NCBI GenBank assembly: GCA_902533625.1
Contig: CACAMI010000001.1
Span: forward strand, 1 to 64,000
DNA: 64,000 nucleotides
From: an uncultured Alphaproteobacteria bacterium
GTDB taxonomy: Bacteria > Pseudomonadota > Alphaproteobacteria > Rhodobacterales > Rhodobacteraceae
Direction of reading: 5' to 3'
Below are positions 1 to 13,154 of this stretch, piece after piece; within the stretch, counting starts at the first letter, position 1, and every line of letters begins with the position of its first letter. The notes beneath the pieces are model-generated. The model was given only the letters and a program-made list of their open reading frames with translations, was not told the DNA's origin and ran no database searches. A program made the position numbers and the translations under genes.

Positions 1-1847
1 TCAAAAAAATCGAGTACTTCAATTGCTAGGTTCCGTCCCATACCAGATTCATCCCGAAACTTTTTTAAATTGAGATACCCATTATTATTTTTATCAATAA
101 TTCCTTCTAAAATCTTTGCTAATTCCAGTAGAGTACTCGAAGAAAAATACCGCTTTTCTGTCAATCTGATTAACAAACCTAAGTTACATAATCGGTCTAA
201 TAAATCCTGTAAAACTTTTACCTCCATGCCAAGATTGGAAGCTAGGTCAGAAACTATAGGTGGAGAAAATTTATTGCTTGTAAAAATATTTTCGATCTTT
301 TCCCAATTCATCTGATCTCTTTTGCTTATTTTCGCAATACGACCAGCGCTATGAATATATTTGCCCGAGCGCTTTAGTTTACCCAACCCAATGCACTCGC
401 TCAAAACAGCCTTTATGACAAAGTTAGGTAGATTATTATCTAAGTTTTTTGCTATTTCATTCTCATCCAAGCCAATGATATCAGGTTTTCTTTTATGAAA
501 AGTATCAACCTCCCTTATTGTCTTCCCTAATAAGGTATTCCAATTTTCAAACGAAAAACCCCACACATTAGAACCATCTCCAAATTTCTTTATTTTTAAT
601 GACCCCATTAACTCTTTCATCTCTTCCGTGGTCAAGTTTCTCGCTACCGAAAATTTAACTAAATCTAGACCCGAGCTACTTTTCGAAAGCAAAGAAGATA
701 GAGCTTTCTTTACGGAATTTTGAGACATAGCCTGAAGTAATTCAATCCGCTTTGGTCTTGCTCTTCCTCGTTCCCTAGAAAAGGGATCAATAATTTTTCC
801 ACCTCCGATAGTCCGGCTTGCAGACCTATCTCTAAGAATAAAATTATCCCCAAAAACAGCGTGTATCGGCTCATCTGGCACTATTTGGACAAAAACCTCA
901 CTACCAGGAATTGCAGATCGATGTTCCAAAATGGCAACTCTGCACGTCACATTCCCTGCTCCAATATAAAGATGCGCAGGGGTCCAGTGTTTTAATGGCT
1001 TCAATTCACTTTTTGAAACAATGAGTTTAGCGTCTAAACGATTGTTCAGCACATGAATCTTATCAGCTAAAATCCAGTCACCACGTCTTATATTTTTTAA
1101 GTCTACCTCTGGCCCAGTAATATTTAATGCACACCGCTGCCCAGCCATTCCTCTCTCACTGTGCTTATTTTGGCTTTGAATGGCCCTTACTTTGACCGAT
1201 TTCCCCGATGGAGCATGTTTTAGGTTATCCCCAATATTTACGATGCCAGAATGAACAGATCCTGTAGCAACGACACCAGCTCCTTTTATTCCGAAACTTC
1301 TATCAATACAGAACCTAAAATTTCCACTTGTAGTTCTTTTTGTAAGACTTTGGGCCCTTTTCTTCAAATGGGCCAACAGATCATTAATTCCCTCTTTGGT
1401 TAAATTTGAAACTGGAAAAATCGAAGCTCTTTCTAAATCATTATCTTCCAAAATTTTTTGAATGATCTCGCTGACTTCTCTCACTCTGTTTTGGGAAACC
1501 TTGTCTATCTTGGTAATGGCAGCAGCACCGCATCTAACTCCTAAAAGACTAAGAATTTCCAAATGTTCCCTTGTCTGAGGCATGGGCCCATCATCAGCAG
1601 CAATCACTAATAATGCAAAATCAATATTCGTTACACCGGCAATCATATTCCGAACAAATCGTTCATGTCCGGGCACATCTACAAATCCCAAAGTGGTCTC
1701 GTCCTCATTACCATAGTAGGCAAAACCTAGATCAACTGACATTCCACGGCGCTTTTCCTCCGGAAGTCGATCTGTATCAATCCCAGTCAGCTCTTTTACT
1801 AAAAGTGTTTTTCCATGATCAATATGGCCAGCAGTCGCTATAATCAT
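1..1847 (-). CDS. selB: Selenocysteine-specific translation elongation factor SelB (C-terminus truncated by window edge)
   Basis: Reverse-strand reading from ATG at 1847: [46 protein letters not shown]...[18 protein letters not shown]; GTPase G1/G3 motifs of SelB; immediately downstream of selA. Confidence 0.93.
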
Positions 1848-1851
1848 AAAT

Positions 1852-3288
1852 TTAGAAATCCCAGTTTTTCGGCAAGAATTCTAATTGTTTAAGAAAAGCA
1901 CTCTCATTCTCTAAATTCCTCAAATCAAGAATAAAGGCGTTGTCATGTACCCTGCCAATTATAGGAATGGGCAATTTTCGAAAAACCTCAGAAACCTTAG
2001 ATAGAAAAAATCCATTGCTAGACTTTTTATTCTTTAATCGAATCGCAATTCCTGCACTTGGAAGCAATTGATTGGGTAGGGCTCCACTGCCAACTTGACT
2101 TTGGCAATCAACCGCCTCCAAAGTAGCCATTCGCTCCATATGAAACCGTAGCTCTGGCAGTACTCTATCGACAACATTTTTTATCTCCTCCTCGGACCGC
2201 AAGAGCAGGCGAAGGGTAGGAATTTTCTGTACTGCCTTCTCGGGGTTTCCATAGATCTTCAGTACAGCTGATAGAGCGGCAACTGTTAATTTATCACATC
2301 TCATCGCGCGCTTCATAGCATTCCTATTTATTCTCGCAATAAGATTTTTCCGACCTGCAATTATTCCACACTGAGGTCCTCCAAGAAGTTTATCTCCACT
2401 AAATGTAACCAAATCAACACCAGACTGAAGTTTTTTTAGGGGAGTTGGTTCTAGCGTTACATTAGAATTCTTAAGATCAATCAATGAGCCACTACCTAAG
2501 TCAACTACAAACGGTATATTGTAATCCCTACTGAGCTTTATAATATCGGCCTCTTTTACCTCTTTTGTGAACCCGGTTATTGTATAGTTGCTTGTATAAG
2601 CTTTTAAGATTAGCCCTGTCTTCGAACTTAAAGCATTTTCAAAGTCCTCAAAGTGTGTGCGATTGGTGGTTCCGACCTCTCGCAACTTGCAGCCAGAACT
2701 TGTCATAATATCAGGCAATCGAAAGGACCCGCCTATTTCAACCAACTCACCACGACTGACTAGAACTTCCTTTCGCCTCGCGAGTGTGTTTAGCACCAAC
2801 ATAACCGCTGCTGCATTATTATTTACTATGGTAACAGCCTCTGCGCCCGTCAGGCGACATAACTCTTCCTCGACATGCTTGTCCCGACTACCTCTATCAC
2901 CTTCCAAAATATTATATTCTAGATTCACGGCCTGACTGGCAGCCTCCGTCATTGCACTAATTGCCTCTTCTGGAAGCAATGCACGTCCAAGGTTAGTATG
3001 TAGAATAGTTCCCGATAGATTCAAAACGGGCTGAAGAGATTTCTCTGTAAATATTAAAACTTTTCTTCTGACTCGATCAACAAAGACTTCTTCTTTGAAT
3101 TTAACACTTTTCTTATTTTCAGAATTAATCATAGAATTTCGAAATTCCTCTTGGACCGCCCGGACACTGTCAGAGACCATACTGTGTCCAAATTCAGAGA
3201 CTAGATTTTTTACACTGGGAAAATCCAAAATTTTGTGCACGGAGGGAACAGAGGACAGATTTGATTGACTAGTTTTCAGTTTATTCAC
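1852..3288 (-). CDS. selA: L-seryl-tRNA(Sec) selenium transferase SelA
   Basis: 478 aa; GTILHTNLGRALLPEEA, VNLEYNILEGDRGSRDKHVEEELCRLTGAEAVTIVNNNAAAVMLVLNTLA, SGDKLLGGPQCGIIAG are SelA signatures. Confidence 0.95.
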   Translation of the reverse strand: MNKLKTSQSNLSSVPSVHKILDFPSVKNLVSEFGHSMVSDSVRAVQEEFRNSMINSENKKSVKFKEEVFVDRVRRKVLIFTEKSLQPVLNLSGTILHTNLGRALLPEEAISAMTEAASQAVNLEYNILEGDRGSRDKHVEEELCRLTGAEAVTIVNNNAAAVMLVLNTLARRKEVLVSRGELVEIGGSFRLPDIMTSSGCKLREVGTTNRTHFEDFENALSSKTGLILKAYTSNYTITGFTKEVKEADIIKLSRDYNIPFVVDLGSGSLIDLKNSNVTLEPTPLKKLQSGVDLVTFSGDKLLGGPQCGIIAGRKNLIARINRNAMKRAMRCDKLTVAALSAVLKIYGNPEKAVQKIPTLRLLLRSEEEIKNVVDRVLPELRFHMERMATLEAVDCQSQVGSGALPNQLLPSAGIAIRLKNKKSSNGFFLSKVSEVFRKLPIPIIGRVHDNAFILDLRNLENESAFLKQLEFLPKNWDF

Positions 3289-3482: not shown

Positions 3483-5684
3483 ATGCTTTTCTTTTCAAGA
3501 AAAAATAGGCCCTTTGAACTTGGTCCGTATCCACTTGAGCGGTTAAGGCATAATGAGAAGTTTTTAAAGATTGAGTCTGAAAGACCAAAAATATCGCGCC
3601 CAATTCCCAAAGAACCAATCAATCCAAATACATTTTCCAAAGCCATAGCTAAATATTTAGAAATGTTTTCTGATTTAGGGAAGGTTGAACCCAGCCCAAA
3701 AAGAGCTCCTGTACCTGATGATCTCTCCCTAAGAACGAAAGACATTAAGGGTGCAGGGTATTTTTTGGATGCTGCCCAGATTGGCATTTGTAATATGGTT
3801 GATAACGCCTGGTATAAAGGAGTTAATCCTTATAATCACAAATACGCAATTGTTATAGCTGTCCGCCCAGGTAGAACACCTGAAACTAATAATTTAGCCT
3901 ATGATTGGGTAAATGGACATGAGATCGCAGCCGCTGAACTAAGAGCTTTTGAAATTGCCGTAGCCTTATCTGAACATGTTCAATGGATGGGATTTGATGG
4001 GAACGCCCATAATCATAATAATGGAGATGTTGATATAGGCCGCCTATCAGTCATGGCAGGGCTTAATGTTAGAGATGGAGAAGCTATTCTAAATCCTTTC
4101 CTTGGAAAATCTTTTGCGCTAGCCGCAGTGACAACAAATTATGAACTAAATGTAGACAAACCTCTTTCTGCCTCCTCTAAAAACGGTAGAGGTATAGGTT
4201 ATTGGCTAGGTATGGGTAGTGCTGTGCCAGGAATTGAATGGGGGCGACGTGAAAAAAGAGCAACCCATTTAAGTGCTTATCCACTAGAAACAGTAAAAAA
4301 AGTAGAAAGACCCACCACTATTATTTTAGATGACGAAGTACCACAAGTTCCAAAGCGCGCTGAATTTTTTGCTCGAGCCGAAGCTGGGGATTTAGGAGAG
4401 AAATCAAGGGTTGAGCGTGGGCGTTTTGCGTTTAAACACCCCTTTGCCATGTCAATGGTAAGTTTAATTAAGCGTATGGTTCCAGAGCAAGACGGTCAGG
4501 TCTGTAAAGAAAAAGGTGTCAGCTACAATGACCCGGGCGCAAACGCAAAGGCCCTTAAATCTATTTCGTACTTATTAGGATCTGAAATGACTGGAATTTG
4601 TGAAATTCCCAGATACGCCTGGTATTCAAACCGTAAAGATGGTTCAGAAATTCCCTATAAGCATAAATACGCCGTTGTTATGCTAGTTGATCAAGGTTAC
4701 GAAACGATGGAGGGCGCATCTGGAGATGATTTTATTTCTGGCGCGCAATCCATGCGTGCCTATATGCGAGGAGCAGAAATAGCGGGCGTAATGGCCGAAC
4801 ATCTACGATCAAACGGCTTTTCATCTCGAGCACAGACGAATGCAGACTCCGATGTTGTTCATATACCCCTTGTACTTTGGGCTGGGCTTGGAGAGTTATC
4901 AAGAATAGGTGAGTTAGTTCTAAATCCTTTTATAGGCCCACGTCTTAAAACTGTTGTTATGACAACAAATATGCCTCTTGAAGTCGATAAGCCAATAGAT
5001 TTTGGACTCCAAAAATTCTGCTCGAGCTGCTTCAAGTGTGCGAGAGAATGTCCATGCAATGCCATTTCCTGGGGTGATAAAATAATGTTCAACGGATACG
5101 AAATATGGAAGCCAGATGTTGAAAGATGTACCCGCTATAGACTTACAAATCAAAAAGGCTTGGCTTGCGGACGTTGCATGAAAACATGCCCCCTTAATAA
5201 GGTGGTTACATGGGAGGGACCTCTGATGACAAGAGTAGCTTCTTGGCTGGGTATAAATGCCCGTTTTTTAAAACCCCTTATTATCCCTATAGCTGTTTGG
5301 CTTGATGACTGGTTGGGTCATGGAATTCGAAATCCATTAAAAAAATGGTGGCTAGATTTAGAAATTGTTGATGGAAACGCCGTTCACCCAACTAAGGGAG
5401 TCAACGAAAGAGACCTGAACCTTAGTCATAAGATTGATCCAGAGAAACAAAATATGGCTTACTATCATGCCAACGACATGCCTCCCCCAAACACAAAAGT
5501 CCCAATCTTAGTTGATCGCAACAAAGCCCTTAAAGCTAAGGAGCTTGTTGAAACACCTGCAGAGGCTCTACTACGAACCGCATCCGGTGGAAAAAAACCC
5601 GATCACTACGTCCCAACTCCCCCTACAAAAGACATTGATTCATCTGCAAAAGATACAGAAAGTTCTTGGTGGGGGAAAAATTAA
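3483..5684 (+). CDS. Reductive dehalogenase (RdhA)-like cobalamin/4Fe-4S protein, cytosolic type, two-module
   Basis: 733 aa; AGLGELSRIGELVLNPFIGPRLKTVVMTTNMPLEVDKPIDFGLQKFCSSCFKCARECPCNAIS and ...CGRCMKTCPLNK (two 4Fe-4S motifs) match the RdhA core; no TAT signal at N-terminus. Confidence 0.85.
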   Translation: MLFFSRKNRPFELGPYPLERLRHNEKFLKIESERPKISRPIPKEPINPNTFSKAIAKYLEMFSDLGKVEPSPKRAPVPDDLSLRTKDIKGAGYFLDAAQIGICNMVDNAWYKGVNPYNHKYAIVIAVRPGRTPETNNLAYDWVNGHEIAAAELRAFEIAVALSEHVQWMGFDGNAHNHNNGDVDIGRLSVMAGLNVRDGEAILNPFLGKSFALAAVTTNYELNVDKPLSASSKNGRGIGYWLGMGSAVPGIEWGRREKRATHLSAYPLETVKKVERPTTIILDDEVPQVPKRAEFFARAEAGDLGEKSRVERGRFAFKHPFAMSMVSLIKRMVPEQDGQVCKEKGVSYNDPGANAKALKSISYLLGSEMTGICEIPRYAWYSNRKDGSEIPYKHKYAVVMLVDQGYETMEGASGDDFISGAQSMRAYMRGAEIAGVMAEHLRSNGFSSRAQTNADSDVVHIPLVLWAGLGELSRIGELVLNPFIGPRLKTVVMTTNMPLEVDKPIDFGLQKFCSSCFKCARECPCNAISWGDKIMFNGYEIWKPDVERCTRYRLTNQKGLACGRCMKTCPLNKVVTWEGPLMTRVASWLGINARFLKPLIIPIAVWLDDWLGHGIRNPLKKWWLDLEIVDGNAVHPTKGVNERDLNLSHKIDPEKQNMAYYHANDMPPPNTKVPILVDRNKALKAKELVETPAEALLRTASGGKKPDHYVPTPPTKDIDSSAKDTESSWWGKN

Positions 5685-5742
5685 ATCTCCAAATAATGAA
5701 ATTATTATTTAAAAAAAAATTTAAAGTAATACTCTTTTTTAT

Positions 5743-6303
5743 ATGAAAATACTTCTTGTTCTTTGCCACCCCAGAAGAGATTCCCTAAGTGGAAATGTCG
5801 CAGATGCATTTGCAAAAGGTGCTTTAGAAGCTGGGCACAAAATTGACTTTCTTGATTTATATGGAGAGAAATTCAACCCTGTTCTAAAAGTGCCAGATGA
5901 ACCTAATGATGGAAAGTTAGAGAATTATTCAAAGGAAGTTCAGGAGGGCTTTATCCGATTAAATAATAATGAAGCAGTGGTTATGGTTTTCCCACTATGG
6001 TGGTGGTCTATGCCAGCAATGTTGAAAGGTTGGATTGATAGGGTCTGGAATTATGGCCTTACTTACGGACCTTGCCAGCACAATATAAAAAAGGGTGCAA
6101 TGCTGATTTTGCCTGCACATACTGAAGAAGACTTAAAGAAAAGAAATTATCTAGAGGCTATACGAACATCTTTTGATGTAGGAATATTTAATTACAATGA
6201 AATTAACGACAGTGAACTAACCTTTCTCGGAGGGACTGATCAAGGCAGAGAGCACTGTAAAAAGCATATTAAAACAGCATATGACAAAGGGTTAGAGTTT
6301 TAA
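5743..6303 (+). CDS. NAD(P)H-dependent oxidoreductase, flavodoxin-like fold (NQO1/MdaB/KefF type)
   Basis: MKILLVLCHPRRDSLSGNVADAFAKGALEAGHKIDFLDLY...VMVFPLWWWSMPAMLKGWIDRV. Confidence 0.85.
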   Translation: MKILLVLCHPRRDSLSGNVADAFAKGALEAGHKIDFLDLYGEKFNPVLKVPDEPNDGKLENYSKEVQEGFIRLNNNEAVVMVFPLWWWSMPAMLKGWIDRVWNYGLTYGPCQHNIKKGAMLILPAHTEEDLKKRNYLEAIRTSFDVGIFNYNEINDSELTFLGGTDQGREHCKKHIKTAYDKGLEF

Positions 6304-6496
6304 AAATTTCCTGATTAACTTTAAACAATATCTCCCTATTGCATCCAAAATCTTATCAATTTTATTTCCAAGAAAAATTTTTGTAATGATCCTTGAATGT
6401 CTAAATCAATAAGTTTCTTTATTTCCACAATTCAAAATTATAGGTTAGAAAAATACTGCATATAGTATATAAAGAAGGAACCTTCTGGATAAAAAT

Positions 6497-7117
6497 ATGA
6501 TACGGAAATTTGATAAATCCACTGCATTACTATTAGTTGATACTCAAAAGGGTGTTAACGATACTTTTTATTATGGTGGTAAGAACGGTAGAAGGAACAA
6601 CTTAAAAGCAGAAGAAAATATCATAGCCATTTTAAAGTTGTGGCGGGCCTCTGATCGCCAGGTGGCTTTCACTAAACACGATTCCAGGGAGGAAAACTCC
6701 CCTTTAAAGCTTAAGCTCGAAAGCGGGCAGCAGCTCGAGGGAATGAGGCCAAAAGACGGAGATATTGTTGTAAAAAAAGATGTAAACAGTGGCTTTATAG
6801 GTACTTCACTTGAGTTAGATCTGAGAAGAGCTGGAATTCAAAGGTTGGTGTTTGTTGGGTTTTTTACGAATGTCTGCATTGAAACTACAGTTCGTATGTC
6901 AGGAAATATGGGCTTCGATACTTACCTAGTACATGACGCCTGTGCCGCCATGAATTGTATTGGTCATGATGGCACTGATTATGATCCTGATGTAGTACAC
7001 AATATGGCTATTGCAAATCTACATGGTGAGTTTTGTACTGCCATTACAACTGCGGATGCTTTGGGCTTATGTGAAAAGGATTCAAGTTCTCTATATAGAG
7101 TGCAAGGAAACGAATAG
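6497..7117 (+). CDS. Isochorismatase-family cysteine hydrolase
   Basis: ALLLVDTQKGVND (Asp), KKDVNSGF (Lys), GFFTNVCIETTVRMSGNMGFDTYLVHDACA (Cys). Confidence 0.85.
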   Translation: MIRKFDKSTALLLVDTQKGVNDTFYYGGKNGRRNNLKAEENIIAILKLWRASDRQVAFTKHDSREENSPLKLKLESGQQLEGMRPKDGDIVVKKDVNSGFIGTSLELDLRRAGIQRLVFVGFFTNVCIETTVRMSGNMGFDTYLVHDACAAMNCIGHDGTDYDPDVVHNMAIANLHGEFCTAITTADALGLCEKDSSSLYRVQGNE

Positions 7118-7989
7118 TGTTCGGGGTTTCATCTATGACAGCTCCTTTGAAGAAGGTAGCAGTAATGAAACCAGGCGCTTCCCTAATTAATGCAGACCCA
7201 GTTAAATGGCATTACGGGCCTCTTTTTGATCCAAAAAAAGTTGCAGAAGTTCATAGCAATTTTGTTGAAATTTTAAAAGATTCAGGGGCTGAAGTTTATT
7301 GGATGTCCGAGAACGGTTTTGAAATTGCCGATTCTGTTTTCACATATGATGCTTCTCTTATGACCCCAGAAGGCGCTATTTTAATGTCACCTGGCAAACT
7401 CCTCAGAAAGGGTGAACAAAATATTCACAAAAGCTTTTATGAGAATGAAAATATTCCAATAATAGGAAATGTGGATTCAGACGGAATGGCGGAAGCTGGA
7501 GATACATTATGGTTAGACAGCCAGACACTTATTATAGGTAGGGGTTTCAGAACAAACCCAAATGGTATCAAACAAATAAAGGAACTATTAAAGCCACAAG
7601 GAATCAAAACATATGTGTTTGATCTTCCTGTTTATTCGGGAAAATCTGCATGTCTGCACCTTATGTCTCTTATTAGCCTTGTCGACACATCGTCTGCACT
7701 CATTTGTTTGCCACTTTTACCTGTAGGACTTTTGGATTTACTTTTAGAGAAAAACTTTTCCCTTATTGAAGCTCCGTTTGATGAATTTGAAAGTAGCAAC
7801 ACACTAAGCACTAATGTCTTAGCCACTTCACCCGGAGAATGCATAATGCTTGAGAGTATTCCTAAAACAAGAAAGGTTTTAACAGATTCTGGAATAAAAG
7901 TACGAGTCTTTCATGGTGACCCTCTTTGTATTGGGTGCGAAGGAGGACCAACATGTTTGACCAGACCTCTATTAAGAGACAGCATTTAA
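7117..7989 (+). CDS. Amidinotransferase/dimethylargininase (DDAH)-like guanidino-modifying protein
   Basis: Start is GTG 7117 or ATG 7135; EAGDTLWLD, CLHLMSLISLVD (His), C-terminal GGPTCLTRPLLR (Cys) fit DDAH/ADI-type catalytic residues. Confidence 0.75.
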   Translation: MFGVSSMTAPLKKVAVMKPGASLINADPVKWHYGPLFDPKKVAEVHSNFVEILKDSGAEVYWMSENGFEIADSVFTYDASLMTPEGAILMSPGKLLRKGEQNIHKSFYENENIPIIGNVDSDGMAEAGDTLWLDSQTLIIGRGFRTNPNGIKQIKELLKPQGIKTYVFDLPVYSGKSACLHLMSLISLVDTSSALICLPLLPVGLLDLLLEKNFSLIEAPFDEFESSNTLSTNVLATSPGECIMLESIPKTRKVLTDSGIKVRVFHGDPLCIGCEGGPTCLTRPLLRDSI

Positions 7990-7991
7990 AA

Positions 7992-9587
7992 ATGAAAAAA
8001 TACGACGTCGCAATTAGTGGATGTGGTCCTGTAGGAGCTATGCTGAGTTTGTTGCTGGCTAAGGGTGGATTGAAAGTCCTCGTCATTGAAAAAGAATTGA
8101 AGGTTTTCAATAAACCACGGGCAATTGTTTTAGATTCTGAAGCCATGAGAATTCTACAGTTTTGTGGGGTTGCTCACCAGTTAGGAGATTCAATTAAACC
8201 TCACCCTGGAACTGATTATATTGGCCTTGATGGACAGCTTATAAAAGTTTTTGATCCGCAGCCTCCGCCTTTTCAATTAGGATGGCCAGCGACCTTAACT
8301 TTTATACAACCTATTCTTGAACGTTTACTAAGAAAAAGAATTAATAACCAAAAAAATATTCACCTACTTCTGGGAAATGAATTAGTTGATGTGTCGGAAG
8401 CTAATAAGTCCGTTGAGATAAAGGTAAGGGGTTCATCTTCTAAGGACTCGAAAACCTTTTCAGCTAAATATCTAATTGGCTGTGATGGAGGAAATAGTGT
8501 TGTTCGAACAGCCATGAACGTTGGTGTTGAAGACTTAGGAGTAGACGAAGATTGGTTGGTTGTAGATGCTTATTTAATTAAAGAAACAAAACTACCTCCA
8601 AAATTTATACAATACTGCTGGCCCTCACGACCTGCTACTTTCGTTTTGGGTCCCAGAAATGTAAGAAGGTGGGAAATAAAAATTCTTCCAGGAGAAGATC
8701 TAAAAGATTTTGAAAGAAAAGAAAAAGTTATGGAAGTTCTGTCAAATTATGTCGACGTAAGTGCCTTAAAAATTTGGCGAACGGCCACCTATAAACACAG
8801 AGTAACAAGTAGCAAAAAATGGAAGATAAACAATATTTTTATCGCTGGTGATTCTGCGCACAGAACCCCTCCTTTTCTTGGGCAGGGACTGTGTACTGGA
8901 ATTAGAGATGTGGCAAATCTATCATGGAAAATACTCCATACAGAAAAGTTTGGATTAAATGATAAAATCTTAAACACATATGAAAAGGAAAGAAAACCTC
9001 ATGCCAAAGTGGTTATCAAACATGCAAAGGAATTTGGAAAAATCATTGGGGAACTTAATCTAGAAAGGGCAAAAAAAAGAGATGCTATTTTAAGGCCGCA
9101 GTTGATTAGTGGTAAAATGGAAACCACCCGGCAAAAATTCATCCCAGACATAAAGGGTAATCTGTTAATACAGAAGAGCCTTAAGACAAAGGAACGCCGC
9201 AATGGAGGAACTCTATTTGTTCAGCCAAGATTAAGGTTTCCTAAAGGTCAAGAAAAACTTATGGATGATGTCATACCTATGTCCTTTTTATACATAAGTA
9301 CTGGATTGAATCAGCAGGTCTGGATGAATCCTTACGAAACGTTTTGGAGAAAACTTGGAGGAATTAGAATTATAATAATGAAGGATACCGAAAGAAAAGA
9401 AACCACTCCAAAAGAAATTGTAATTACAAAAGAAGTGGGGAAAATTTTTAGTGACTGGTCTTCAAAAATGTCGTGTGAGGCCGTACTGGTTAGGCCTGAT
9501 AGATACGTGTTTTCAACAATTCACAACCAAGAGGATATCAATGCAGCTATAAAAAAATTAAGGACAATATTTTCTCAGAAGCACTAA
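7992..9587 (+). CDS. FAD-dependent aromatic monooxygenase (MhpA/PheA-like, FAD_binding_3)
   Basis: ATG 7992; KKYDVAISGCGPVGAMLSLLLAKGGLKVLVIEKE (GxGxxG), GDSAHRTPPFLGQGLCTGIRDVANLSWKI (second FAD motif). Confidence 0.88.
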   Translation: MKKYDVAISGCGPVGAMLSLLLAKGGLKVLVIEKELKVFNKPRAIVLDSEAMRILQFCGVAHQLGDSIKPHPGTDYIGLDGQLIKVFDPQPPPFQLGWPATLTFIQPILERLLRKRINNQKNIHLLLGNELVDVSEANKSVEIKVRGSSSKDSKTFSAKYLIGCDGGNSVVRTAMNVGVEDLGVDEDWLVVDAYLIKETKLPPKFIQYCWPSRPATFVLGPRNVRRWEIKILPGEDLKDFERKEKVMEVLSNYVDVSALKIWRTATYKHRVTSSKKWKINNIFIAGDSAHRTPPFLGQGLCTGIRDVANLSWKILHTEKFGLNDKILNTYEKERKPHAKVVIKHAKEFGKIIGELNLERAKKRDAILRPQLISGKMETTRQKFIPDIKGNLLIQKSLKTKERRNGGTLFVQPRLRFPKGQEKLMDDVIPMSFLYISTGLNQQVWMNPYETFWRKLGGIRIIIMKDTERKETTPKEIVITKEVGKIFSDWSSKMSCEAVLVRPDRYVFSTIHNQEDINAAIKKLRTIFSQKH

Positions 9588-11042: not shown

Positions 11043-12569
11043 ATGAAGCCAAATATAGTTATCATAATGGCGGATCAATTGGCACCCCATTTTTGTGGTA
11101 CATACGGCCACAAAGTTGCAAAGACACCAAACATTGATTCCTTGGCAAAAGGTGGAATGAGGTTCGATGCAGCCTACTGCAACTCGCCACTTTGTGCTCC
11201 GTCTCGATTTTCATTCATGTCCGGCCAGCTTGTGAGTCGAATTGCTGCCTATGACAACGCATCTGAATTCAAGGCTGCTACTCCAACATTTGCACATTAT
11301 TTAAAGACATTAGGATATAGAACATGCCTTAGCGGCAAAATGCATTTCGTAGGACCTGATCAAAAACACGGATTCCAAGATCGAATTACGACAGATATTT
11401 ATCCATCTGACTTTGCCTGGACGCCAGATTGGGAAGCTCCAGATGAGAGAATAGATAAATGGTATCACAATATGCAGACAGTAAAAGAAAGTGGCGTTGC
11501 AGTAGCCACTTTTCAAACAGATTATGATGACGAGGTGGGTTTTGCTGCTAAACGATGGTTAATTGATAGAGGTCGAGACAGGGCAAATGGGAAAAAAGAA
11601 CCTTTTGCAATGGTGGCAAGCTTTATACATCCTCATGACCCATATGTTGCAAAGCCTGAATGGTGGAATCTTTATTCAGACAATCAAATTGAACTGCCCG
11701 AATGCAAAATACCAACTGAAAAAATGGATCCTTTTTCTCAAAGATTAATGGATGGTATTGAGGCGAGTTATGTTCCCCTTAGCAATGAGGAAATTATAAG
11801 AGCTCGTCGAGCCTATCTTGCAAATGTCAGTTACTTCGATAGTAAAGTTGGAGAAATAGTAAAGACATTAAAAGATATAAATGAAATCGAAAATACCTTG
11901 ATTATTGTAACCGCTGATCATGGAGACATGCTTGGTGAAAGAGGGCTATGGTATAAAATGAATTTTTTTGAACACTCTGCCAGAGTTCCCCTGATTTTTT
12001 CAGGACCAGGCGTGGTTAAAGGTGCTACTAGAAATGCTTGCTCTCTAGTAGATATACTACCAACTCTTTTGGAGGTGGCAGGTGGGGGAGAAGACATTTT
12101 AGGAGAGCCAATAGATGGAAGGAGTTTATTACCTTTAGCCAGAGGCGAAAAAGATAAAAAAAATGAAGCCATTGGAGAATATTGTGCTGAAATGACTCCA
12201 TATCCTGTCTTCATGATAAGAAGAGATAACTTCAAATACATTCATTGTGATCCAGATCCACCACAAATGTATAACTTAGATGAAGATCCACTCGAAAAAA
12301 ACAATCTCGCCTTTGACTCAATTTATAGCAGTCATGTTGAAAACTTTTCCATAGAAGTTTCTGAAAGATGGAATAGCGAAAAACTTCGTTTAGATATAAT
12401 AAATACGCAAAAATCCAGGAGAGCCTTGCATTCGGCAATGGAGGCAGGTGCGGGGGAACATTGGGATTATGATCCGCCAAGTGATGCTAGCCAAAAATAT
12501 GTCAGAAATCACATGGATTGGACCGTTGCAGCCGAACGCTATAGATTCCCACCTTACAAGAGTAAATGA
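11043..12569 (+). CDS. betC: Choline-sulfatase (BetC-like sulfatase)
   Basis: MKPNIVIIMADQL...YCNSPLCAPSRFSFMSGQLVSR...TCLSGKMHFVGPDQKHGF...WTPDWEAPDERIDKWYHNM...DASQKYVRNHMDW; C-x-P-S-R formylglycine motif plus BetC-typical segments and C-terminal tail. Confidence 0.85.
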   Translation: MKPNIVIIMADQLAPHFCGTYGHKVAKTPNIDSLAKGGMRFDAAYCNSPLCAPSRFSFMSGQLVSRIAAYDNASEFKAATPTFAHYLKTLGYRTCLSGKMHFVGPDQKHGFQDRITTDIYPSDFAWTPDWEAPDERIDKWYHNMQTVKESGVAVATFQTDYDDEVGFAAKRWLIDRGRDRANGKKEPFAMVASFIHPHDPYVAKPEWWNLYSDNQIELPECKIPTEKMDPFSQRLMDGIEASYVPLSNEEIIRARRAYLANVSYFDSKVGEIVKTLKDINEIENTLIIVTADHGDMLGERGLWYKMNFFEHSARVPLIFSGPGVVKGATRNACSLVDILPTLLEVAGGGEDILGEPIDGRSLLPLARGEKDKKNEAIGEYCAEMTPYPVFMIRRDNFKYIHCDPDPPQMYNLDEDPLEKNNLAFDSIYSSHVENFSIEVSERWNSEKLRLDIINTQKSRRALHSAMEAGAGEHWDYDPPSDASQKYVRNHMDWTVAAERYRFPPYKSK

Positions 12570-12575
12570 ATTATT

Positions 12576-13154
12576 TTATTTCTCATCCATCACAGATAAT
12601 TTATCCATTCCTTTACCGCGCCAAAGAACAAAAGTAAGAATTGGCTCTGAAGATGTTATCATTGAGTGGCTCTGCCAACTCTTGTGAAAGCAGGTTTCAT
12701 TTACTTTCAATAGCTTTTCGCCTTCTTTTGTCCTGAACAAGCCACTTCCTGCTAATATAAAATAAATTTCCTCTGCTTCATGGCTGTGCCAATCGTACGT
12801 TAATTCCTCTCCCCAGTATGCTATAAAGCCTCTAATTTTATTAGAATGATAATGTCCTTCAGGACCAATCAACTCATAATACCCATACCTATTTAAGAAA
12901 TCAGAACCCACTTCCTCTTCTTTGTAGGTACGTTGCCAATTAACTAATGAAGTATTTTCCTTTATAATTTCAATTAAATTTTGGGTTTCTTCAGTTCCTC
13001 TTAATTCAAATTTTGACACTAGTTCGGTGGCAGGTATATTTTCAGAAGGCTGATCAACTTTTACTAAATCATCTGGCCACTCTACAAATTCCCTTAATTC
13101 AGAATTTTCTTTATGAACCTTTCGAGCGCTCTCTAAAATTAACTCTAAACTCAT
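12576..13154 (-). CDS. dddQ: DddQ-like dimethylsulfoniopropionate (DMSP) lyase, cupin
   Basis: 192 aa; RYGYYELIGPEGHYHSNKIRGFIAYWGEELTYDWHSHEAEEIYFILAGSGLF...HKSWQSHSMITSSEPILTFVLWRGKG resembles the DddQ core. Confidence 0.78.
   Translation of the reverse strand: MSLELILESARKVHKENSELREFVEWPDDLVKVDQPSENIPATELVSKFELRGTEETQNLIEIIKENTSLVNWQRTYKEEEVGSDFLNRYGYYELIGPEGHYHSNKIRGFIAYWGEELTYDWHSHEAEEIYFILAGSGLFRTKEGEKLLKVNETCFHKSWQSHSMITSSEPILTFVLWRGKGMDKLSVMDEK

Follow-up and report, generated by a model that had tools for sequence, protein, structure and literature searches.

A predicted cytosolic reductive dehalogenase of NpRdhA type, very probably acquired horizontally, next to a separate isochorismatase–DDAH gene pair in a Rhodobacteraceae genome

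Does a run of five same-strand genes in an uncultured alphaproteobacterium of the Rhodobacteraceae constitute a single pathway for a halogenated aromatic compound, or does the reductive dehalogenase homolog (RdhA) encoded by the first of them act independently of its neighbours? The genes lie within the first 64,000 nucleotides of contig CACAMI010000001.1 (assembly GCA_902533625.1), here called the window, and had been proposed to form one catabolic locus in an earlier interpretation made from the nucleotide sequence alone (the sequence-only reading). We consider it probable, albeit with reservations, that rdhA encodes a horizontally acquired and self-contained catabolic dehalogenase resembling NpRdhA, that the genes for an isochorismatase-family and a DDAH-like protein make up a separate module, and that the flavoprotein encoded next to rdhA is not needed by the dehalogenase. 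The open reading frame (ORF) listing, together with Pfam and NCBIfam searches, agreed with the sequence-only reading with regards to the five genes at 3483-9587, their families and their spacing, giving the following features:

3483..5684, plus strand: rdhA, 733 aa, a predicted cytosolic two-domain (vestigial and catalytic) reductive dehalogenase of NpRdhA type without fused reductase
5019..5189, plus strand: coding stretch for the two 4Fe-4S cysteine motifs (C513, C516, C519, C523; C549, C562, C565, C569), invariant in alignments and with Fer4_7 over its cutoff
5743..6303, plus strand: flavodoxin-fold NAD(P)H/quinone-type oxidoreductase, 186 aa, NF007280 over cutoff, probably not a partner of RdhA
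6304..6496, no strand: AT-rich gap of 193 bp between two units
6497..7117, plus strand: isochorismatase-family amide hydrolase, 206 aa, PF00857, first gene of a conserved pair
7117..7989, plus strand: DDAH/arginine-deiminase-like pentein hydrolase, 290 aa, PF02274, second gene of the pair
7992..9587, plus strand: MhpA-type FAD aromatic hydroxylase, 531 aa from ATG 7992 (longest ORF from TTG 7926), NF004829

The 733-aa protein scored 180.2 bits with the reductive dehalogenase profile TIGR02486 (curated cutoff 160.35) and aligned over its full length with NpRdhA (PDB 4RAS) in a phmmer search (E 1e-195, well outside what chance would give), at 44–45% identity. The Pfam profile Dehalogenase (PF13486) gave no match to the protein, but it found nothing in the control genomes either, and its coverage may not extend to the branch in question. 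As the sequence-only reading had stated, the protein begins without a twin-arginine translocation (TAT) motif, at MLFFSRKNRPFELGPYPLERL (MLFFSRKNRP), and carries two 4Fe-4S motifs, all eight cysteines of which were intact and invariant in alignments. An AlphaFold model (pLDDT 79.7) was compared with solved structures using Foldseek, with TM-scores normalised by target, whereby NpRdhA gave a score of 0.92, as compared with 0.51–0.55 for PceA, 0.33–0.37 for QueG and 0.37 for human CblC/MMACHC. The vestigial N-terminal duplicate of the cobalamin domain was present, as seen from the full-length 4RAS match and this TM-score, and the N-terminal half also matched single-domain RdhAs at 28–32% identity. 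A C-terminal reductase domain, such as the FMN/2Fe-2S reductase of the BhbA/JtRdhA type, was found with neither Pfam nor NCBIfam.

Residues F296, S423, M424, Y427, N453, K489 and R553 aligned with F291, S422, M423, Y426, N452, K488 and R552 of NpRdhA, which have roles in substrate binding or protonation (PMC7565698, PMC10463259) and of which Y426, K488 and R552 constitute the catalytic Tyr/Lys dyad and Arg (PMC7565698). Catalytic, substrate-hydroxyl and cofactor residues were all kept across the clade of the window RdhA. The QueG profile reached only 21.6 against a cutoff of 200, and with the low TM-scores this ruled out a QueG- or CblC-like identity. The sequence-only reading had itself named placement among such proteins, or loss of the Tyr/Lys-Arg residues, as results that would speak against it; considering the complete conservation of the catalytic residues and the low QueG and CblC TM-scores, it withstood both checks, and its assignment of a catabolic NpRdhA-type protein was supported by profile, full-length homology and fold. 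Judging from its sequence, what rdhA encodes is a genuine reductive dehalogenase of the cytosolic, catabolic NpRdhA type. Because of this homology, its substrate is expected to be an ortho-halogenated phenol. The substrate of NpRdhA itself is 3,5-dibromo-4-hydroxybenzoate.

The closest known system is thus NpRdhA from Nitratireductor pacificus (PDB 4RAS/6ZXU/6ZXX), which has the same two-domain cytosolic architecture without reductase, the same catalytic residues and the same cluster cysteines, although the window protein differs from it by A419 to Gly, P311 to Ala and, at the entrance lysine, K307 to Arg. The self-sufficient debrominases of the type of BhbA (Comamonas sp. 7D-2), JtRdhA and Ros_A3X954 have a homologous RdhA part (38% identity to BhbA) and the same expected ortho-halophenol chemistry, but the window RdhA lacks their fused reductase and belongs to another branch. 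The reductase-fused enzymes of the window's own family depart from NpRdhA at A419, F310 and N452, and the pocket of the window RdhA is more like that of NpRdhA than like theirs. Respiratory PceA and QueG share the corrinoid/4Fe-4S core, whereas the missing TAT leader and the vestigial N-terminal half set the window RdhA apart from PceA, QueG and CblC taken as a group.

With regards to the origin of the gene, 56 of the 148 other genera in the window's family encoded an RdhA at 40–45% identity, most of them in ORFs of about 1070 aa, i.e. of the reductase-fused type, and the unfused type in none, so that within its family the 733-aa form was limited to the window's genus. Six full-length fused RdhAs of the family had 54–77% identity to the enzyme of Ruegeria sp. 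TM1040, which supports a Roseobacter/Rhodobacter type for this family. In a tree of 52 proteins (a quick build with SH-aLRT support only), the fused RdhAs of the family formed one separate clade (support 100) and the window protein was nested inside the unfused clade (support 99–100%). Its closest unfused relative, at 77% identity, came from a metagenome-assembled genome (MAG) labelled Rhodospirillales, followed by relatives at 62–64% in Rhodospirillales, Hyphomicrobiales and other Alphaproteobacteria (99–100) and then by Gammaproteobacteria. Since the protein is nested in this manner, and since rdhA has a GC content of 42% as compared with 36.5% for the window, the gene was very probably acquired horizontally. 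Plasmids, when searched, yielded RdhAs of fused or respiratory type but nothing close among unfused ones.

As for the locus, rdhA is separated from the flavodoxin-fold gene by 58 bp, the latter from the isochorismatase-family gene by the 193-bp gap, and the isochorismatase-family and DDAH-like genes overlap by 1 bp. A division into two units at the gap, suggested in the sequence-only reading, was supported, and a scan of the gap for promoter and terminator consensus gave sites no more numerous than in shuffled sequence. We then searched 80 other unfused-RdhA loci with each of the window proteins, over flanks of at most 10 kb (less on several short contigs), and found no flavodoxin, no DDAH and no close isochorismatase or MhpA match, the sole matches being a partial isochorismatase (30%) at 4 kb and a hydroxylase (23%) at 8 kb. 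A Pfam tally of the genes co-directional with unfused RdhAs likewise gave no common partner, with NUDIX, enoyl-CoA hydratase, metallo-beta-lactamase and amidohydrolase genes each in 3–5 of 64. The genus was represented by two genomes only, that of the window and its sister G033, where the order RdhA, isochorismatase, DDAH and MhpA was kept at locus L031, with an HNH gene inserted after rdhA. The neighbourhood conservation that the sequence-only reading had proposed as a check was seen in the sister genome and nowhere among the 80 other loci. Because selAB and a cupin gene flank the locus in G033 just as in the window, the conserved order reflects shared ancestry as much as selection and is no special evidence of function.

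The sequence-only reading had further named the flavoprotein as a candidate electron donor. This protein (NF007280, 181.2 bits against a cutoff of 162) is an oxidoreductase of NQO/KefF type, with quinone reductases as its nearest solved chains, and its gene in G033 was a remnant (L031:5995-5450) with many stops and gaps, situated beside an intact rdhA. We therefore rejected the flavoprotein as favoured donor. Ferredoxins and a ferredoxin reductase are reported to adjoin NpRdhA (PMC10463259), whereas only the quinone-reductase-type flavoprotein was found beside rdhA in the window. At two loci encoding RdhAs of 64% identity (L034:10001-21343 and L036:3827-15178), we observed a short-chain dehydrogenase gene 18 bp downstream and a large gene of pyruvate:ferredoxin-oxidoreductase type (1157 aa) nearby, possibly linking ferredoxin to those RdhAs.

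The isochorismatase-family protein (PF00857, E 1e-24) and the DDAH-like protein (PF02274, E 2e-17) were encoded as pairs also elsewhere, overlapping or at most 30 bp apart. Within the window's family, genomes of two other genera had the pair, G092 (at 83% and 75% identity and next to a TRAP transporter) and G137, both without any match to a catabolic RdhA. A more distant copy (60% and 45%) was present in G230, which belongs to another family and has an unfused RdhA on a different contig. The isochorismatase-family protein had 74–83% identity in G033 and G092 and 60% in G230, with an invariant presumed triad D15/K94/C127, while C280, H181, E126, D129 and D72 of the DDAH-like protein were likewise invariant and its model matched DDAH and arginine deiminase folds. 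In catalytic residues and folds the two proteins resemble DDAH/arginine deiminase (pentein) enzymes and the RutB/biuret-type isochorismatase hydrolases, but they missed every curated NCBIfam cutoff for named enzymes and, as an adjacent pair, they differ from these in forming a small module of their own, independent of RdhA. From the chemistry of the two enzyme families, they probably convert a guanidino to a ureido compound and then cleave off the carbamoyl group; a literature search on the pairing gave nothing relevant. In G092 (L116:4920-10645), the pair lies directly downstream of the TAXI-type TRAP transporter and is followed by a TauD-family dioxygenase gene, which provides a lead to its substrate.

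For RdhA acting on its own, we propose that the cobalt of cobalamin would bind the halogen of an ortho-halogenated phenol, most likely a brominated one (for instance a bromo-4-hydroxybenzoate), that the two 4Fe-4S clusters would pass on electrons from a general ferredoxin or flavodoxin with its reductase, encoded elsewhere, and that Tyr427 together with Lys489 would donate a proton, with release of bromide. The dehalogenated phenol could then enter ordinary aromatic metabolism, possibly becoming hydroxylated by the MhpA-type enzyme (7992-9587), and its ring could be opened by enzymes whose genes lie in other parts of the genome, while the isochorismatase–DDAH pair would carry out its presumed guanidino and ureido chemistry apart from these steps. 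A cluster on contig 3 (L166), with two MhpA-like hydroxylases, two VOC/extradiol-type proteins and an FAA hydrolase, makes such ring cleavage elsewhere possible, and the genome encodes a B12-binding/B12-dependent methylmalonyl-CoA mutase. Several points weigh against this proposal. No ferredoxin partner of RdhA was identified, and CobQ was not found in the genome, which is 75% complete. Both genomes of the genus share the order from RdhA to MhpA, so that a functional link is possible, and G230, the only genome of another family found to have the isochorismatase–DDAH pair, also carries an unfused RdhA. Finally, although the GC content and the tree show that the gene moved between lineages, neither tells when this happened or in which direction. 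A PF02514 match initially taken as evidence of B12 synthesis was withdrawn, the gene being bchH of a photosynthesis cluster.

The alternative that survives best, possible although on the whole unlikely, is that RdhA and the MhpA-type hydroxylase make up a two-step unit, in which debromination would give a phenolic acid that is converted to a catechol and cleaved elsewhere, with the isochorismatase–DDAH pair as an inserted bystander. The hydroxylase (PF01494, E 2e-53; NF004829 of the MhpA subfamily, 443 bits against a cutoff of 390; probably starting at the conserved ATG 7992 rather than at TTG 7926) has been kept in the window's genome and in G033 alike, and known or presumed catabolic RdhAs have ring enzymes as neighbours, including BhbA on pBHB with ligA and a class III dioxygenase, a Nitratireductor RdhA on pOM-1 near pobA and an extradiol dioxygenase, and a single-domain RdhA with HpaB and a class III dioxygenase. 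A pairing of the two enzymes is plausible in itself. However, apart from the distant 23% match, none of the 80 unfused-RdhA loci had an MhpA-type neighbour, no ring-cleavage dioxygenase was recognised by Pfam or NCBIfam near the locus, and the hydroxylase gene is packed against that of DDAH, with the pair separating it from rdhA. Its only close homolog was in G033 (69%; at most 40% for the next best in the family), and it was joined to the pair only in this genus.

We find it improbable that RdhA is a detoxifying or repurposed corrinoid protein without a halogenated substrate; identity to the nearest characterised enzyme is no more than about 45% and the 733-aa subclade is known by sequence, but the conserved residues and the fold argue against this notion. 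Little credence can be given to the five-gene pathway of the sequence-only reading, in which a halogenated, nitrogen-bearing aromatic would be degraded and RdhA would receive its electrons from the flavoprotein. The shared strand, the mostly tight spacing and the order in G033 speak for it, albeit with an inserted HNH gene and a decayed flavoprotein there. Against it stand this flavoprotein pseudogene, the lack of any such arrangement at 80 related loci and the equal synteny of flanking genes in G033, as well as the isochorismatase–DDAH pair itself, which in G092 and G137 has neither RdhA nor MhpA with it and in G230 is located away from RdhA. Very unlikely indeed is a pathway restricted to this genus for a halogenated aromatic of marine origin with a guanidino or ureido group (such as a bromotyrosine- or oroidin-like alkaloid), with nitrogen removed by the pair, bromine by RdhA and ring cleavage prepared by MhpA, which we keep in mind because the two genomes of the genus agree in gene order and both modules also occur in G230.

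With the self-contained dehalogenase as the preferred explanation, the window RdhA belongs to a known kind of enzyme, the earlier view of the locus was partly wrong, and no new degradation pathway is demonstrated. It places an oxygen-tolerant dehalogenase of NpRdhA type in a small, photosynthesis-gene-bearing genome of Roseobacter type, from a streamlined and probably marine bacterium. The unfused clade, with its NpRdhA-like pocket, is widespread and uncharacterised, found in marine and groundwater MAGs of which some are probably sponge-associated, and it can be put to the test for bromophenol turnover in the sea.

A class-level search for RdhA matches also gave single-domain cytosolic RdhAs of about 440 aa (L175:5146-7778, L179:4430-7062, L176:5931-7268, L177:5283-6602, L178:5461-6807 and L180:851-2185), having neither the vestigial half nor a TAT leader, with the Tyr, Lys, Arg and cysteines kept in all copies. 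In two genomes (L175 and L179), the genes overlapped in tandem pairs, each copy of which was catalytically intact by sequence, the L175 pair being adjoined by a gentisate 1,2-dioxygenase gene (460.3 against a cutoff of 442.1), and the L177 gene adjoined those for HpaB and a class III extradiol dioxygenase. A domain tree placed the single-domain RdhAs outside the two-domain clade (99% support), with the root unsure owing to a very long-branched respiratory outgroup, and they may represent the state before duplication. None of the four RdhA subfamilies described in PMC10463259 has this architecture, and literature searches gave no description of it; with these proteins it could become possible to test how the vestigial duplication of catabolic RdhAs arose. 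Another RdhA-like group of about 400 aa, without TAT leader and about 30–35% identical to the window RdhA (L186, L187 and L188 in G056, G046 and G042), recurs in many genomes of the window's family.

The divergent neighbour of rdhA is:

1852..3288, minus strand: selA (selenocysteine synthase), TIGR00474 553.7 bits, with selB beyond, in the same position in sister locus L031

Selenocysteine machinery (window 1-3288) is thereby encoded directly upstream of rdhA in both genomes of the genus, streamlined as the genome is; no tRNA genes were found in the window. Contig 33 of the window's genome (G000, L167) carries an anoxygenic photosynthesis gene cluster with bchH and bchL as well as apparent bchM, hemA and pucC. 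Just downstream of the locus lie genes for a choline-sulfatase (11043-12569; 676 bits against a cutoff of 433) and a cupin of the DMSP_lyase Pfam family (12576-13154; 76 bits), together pointing to use of algal sulfur compounds.

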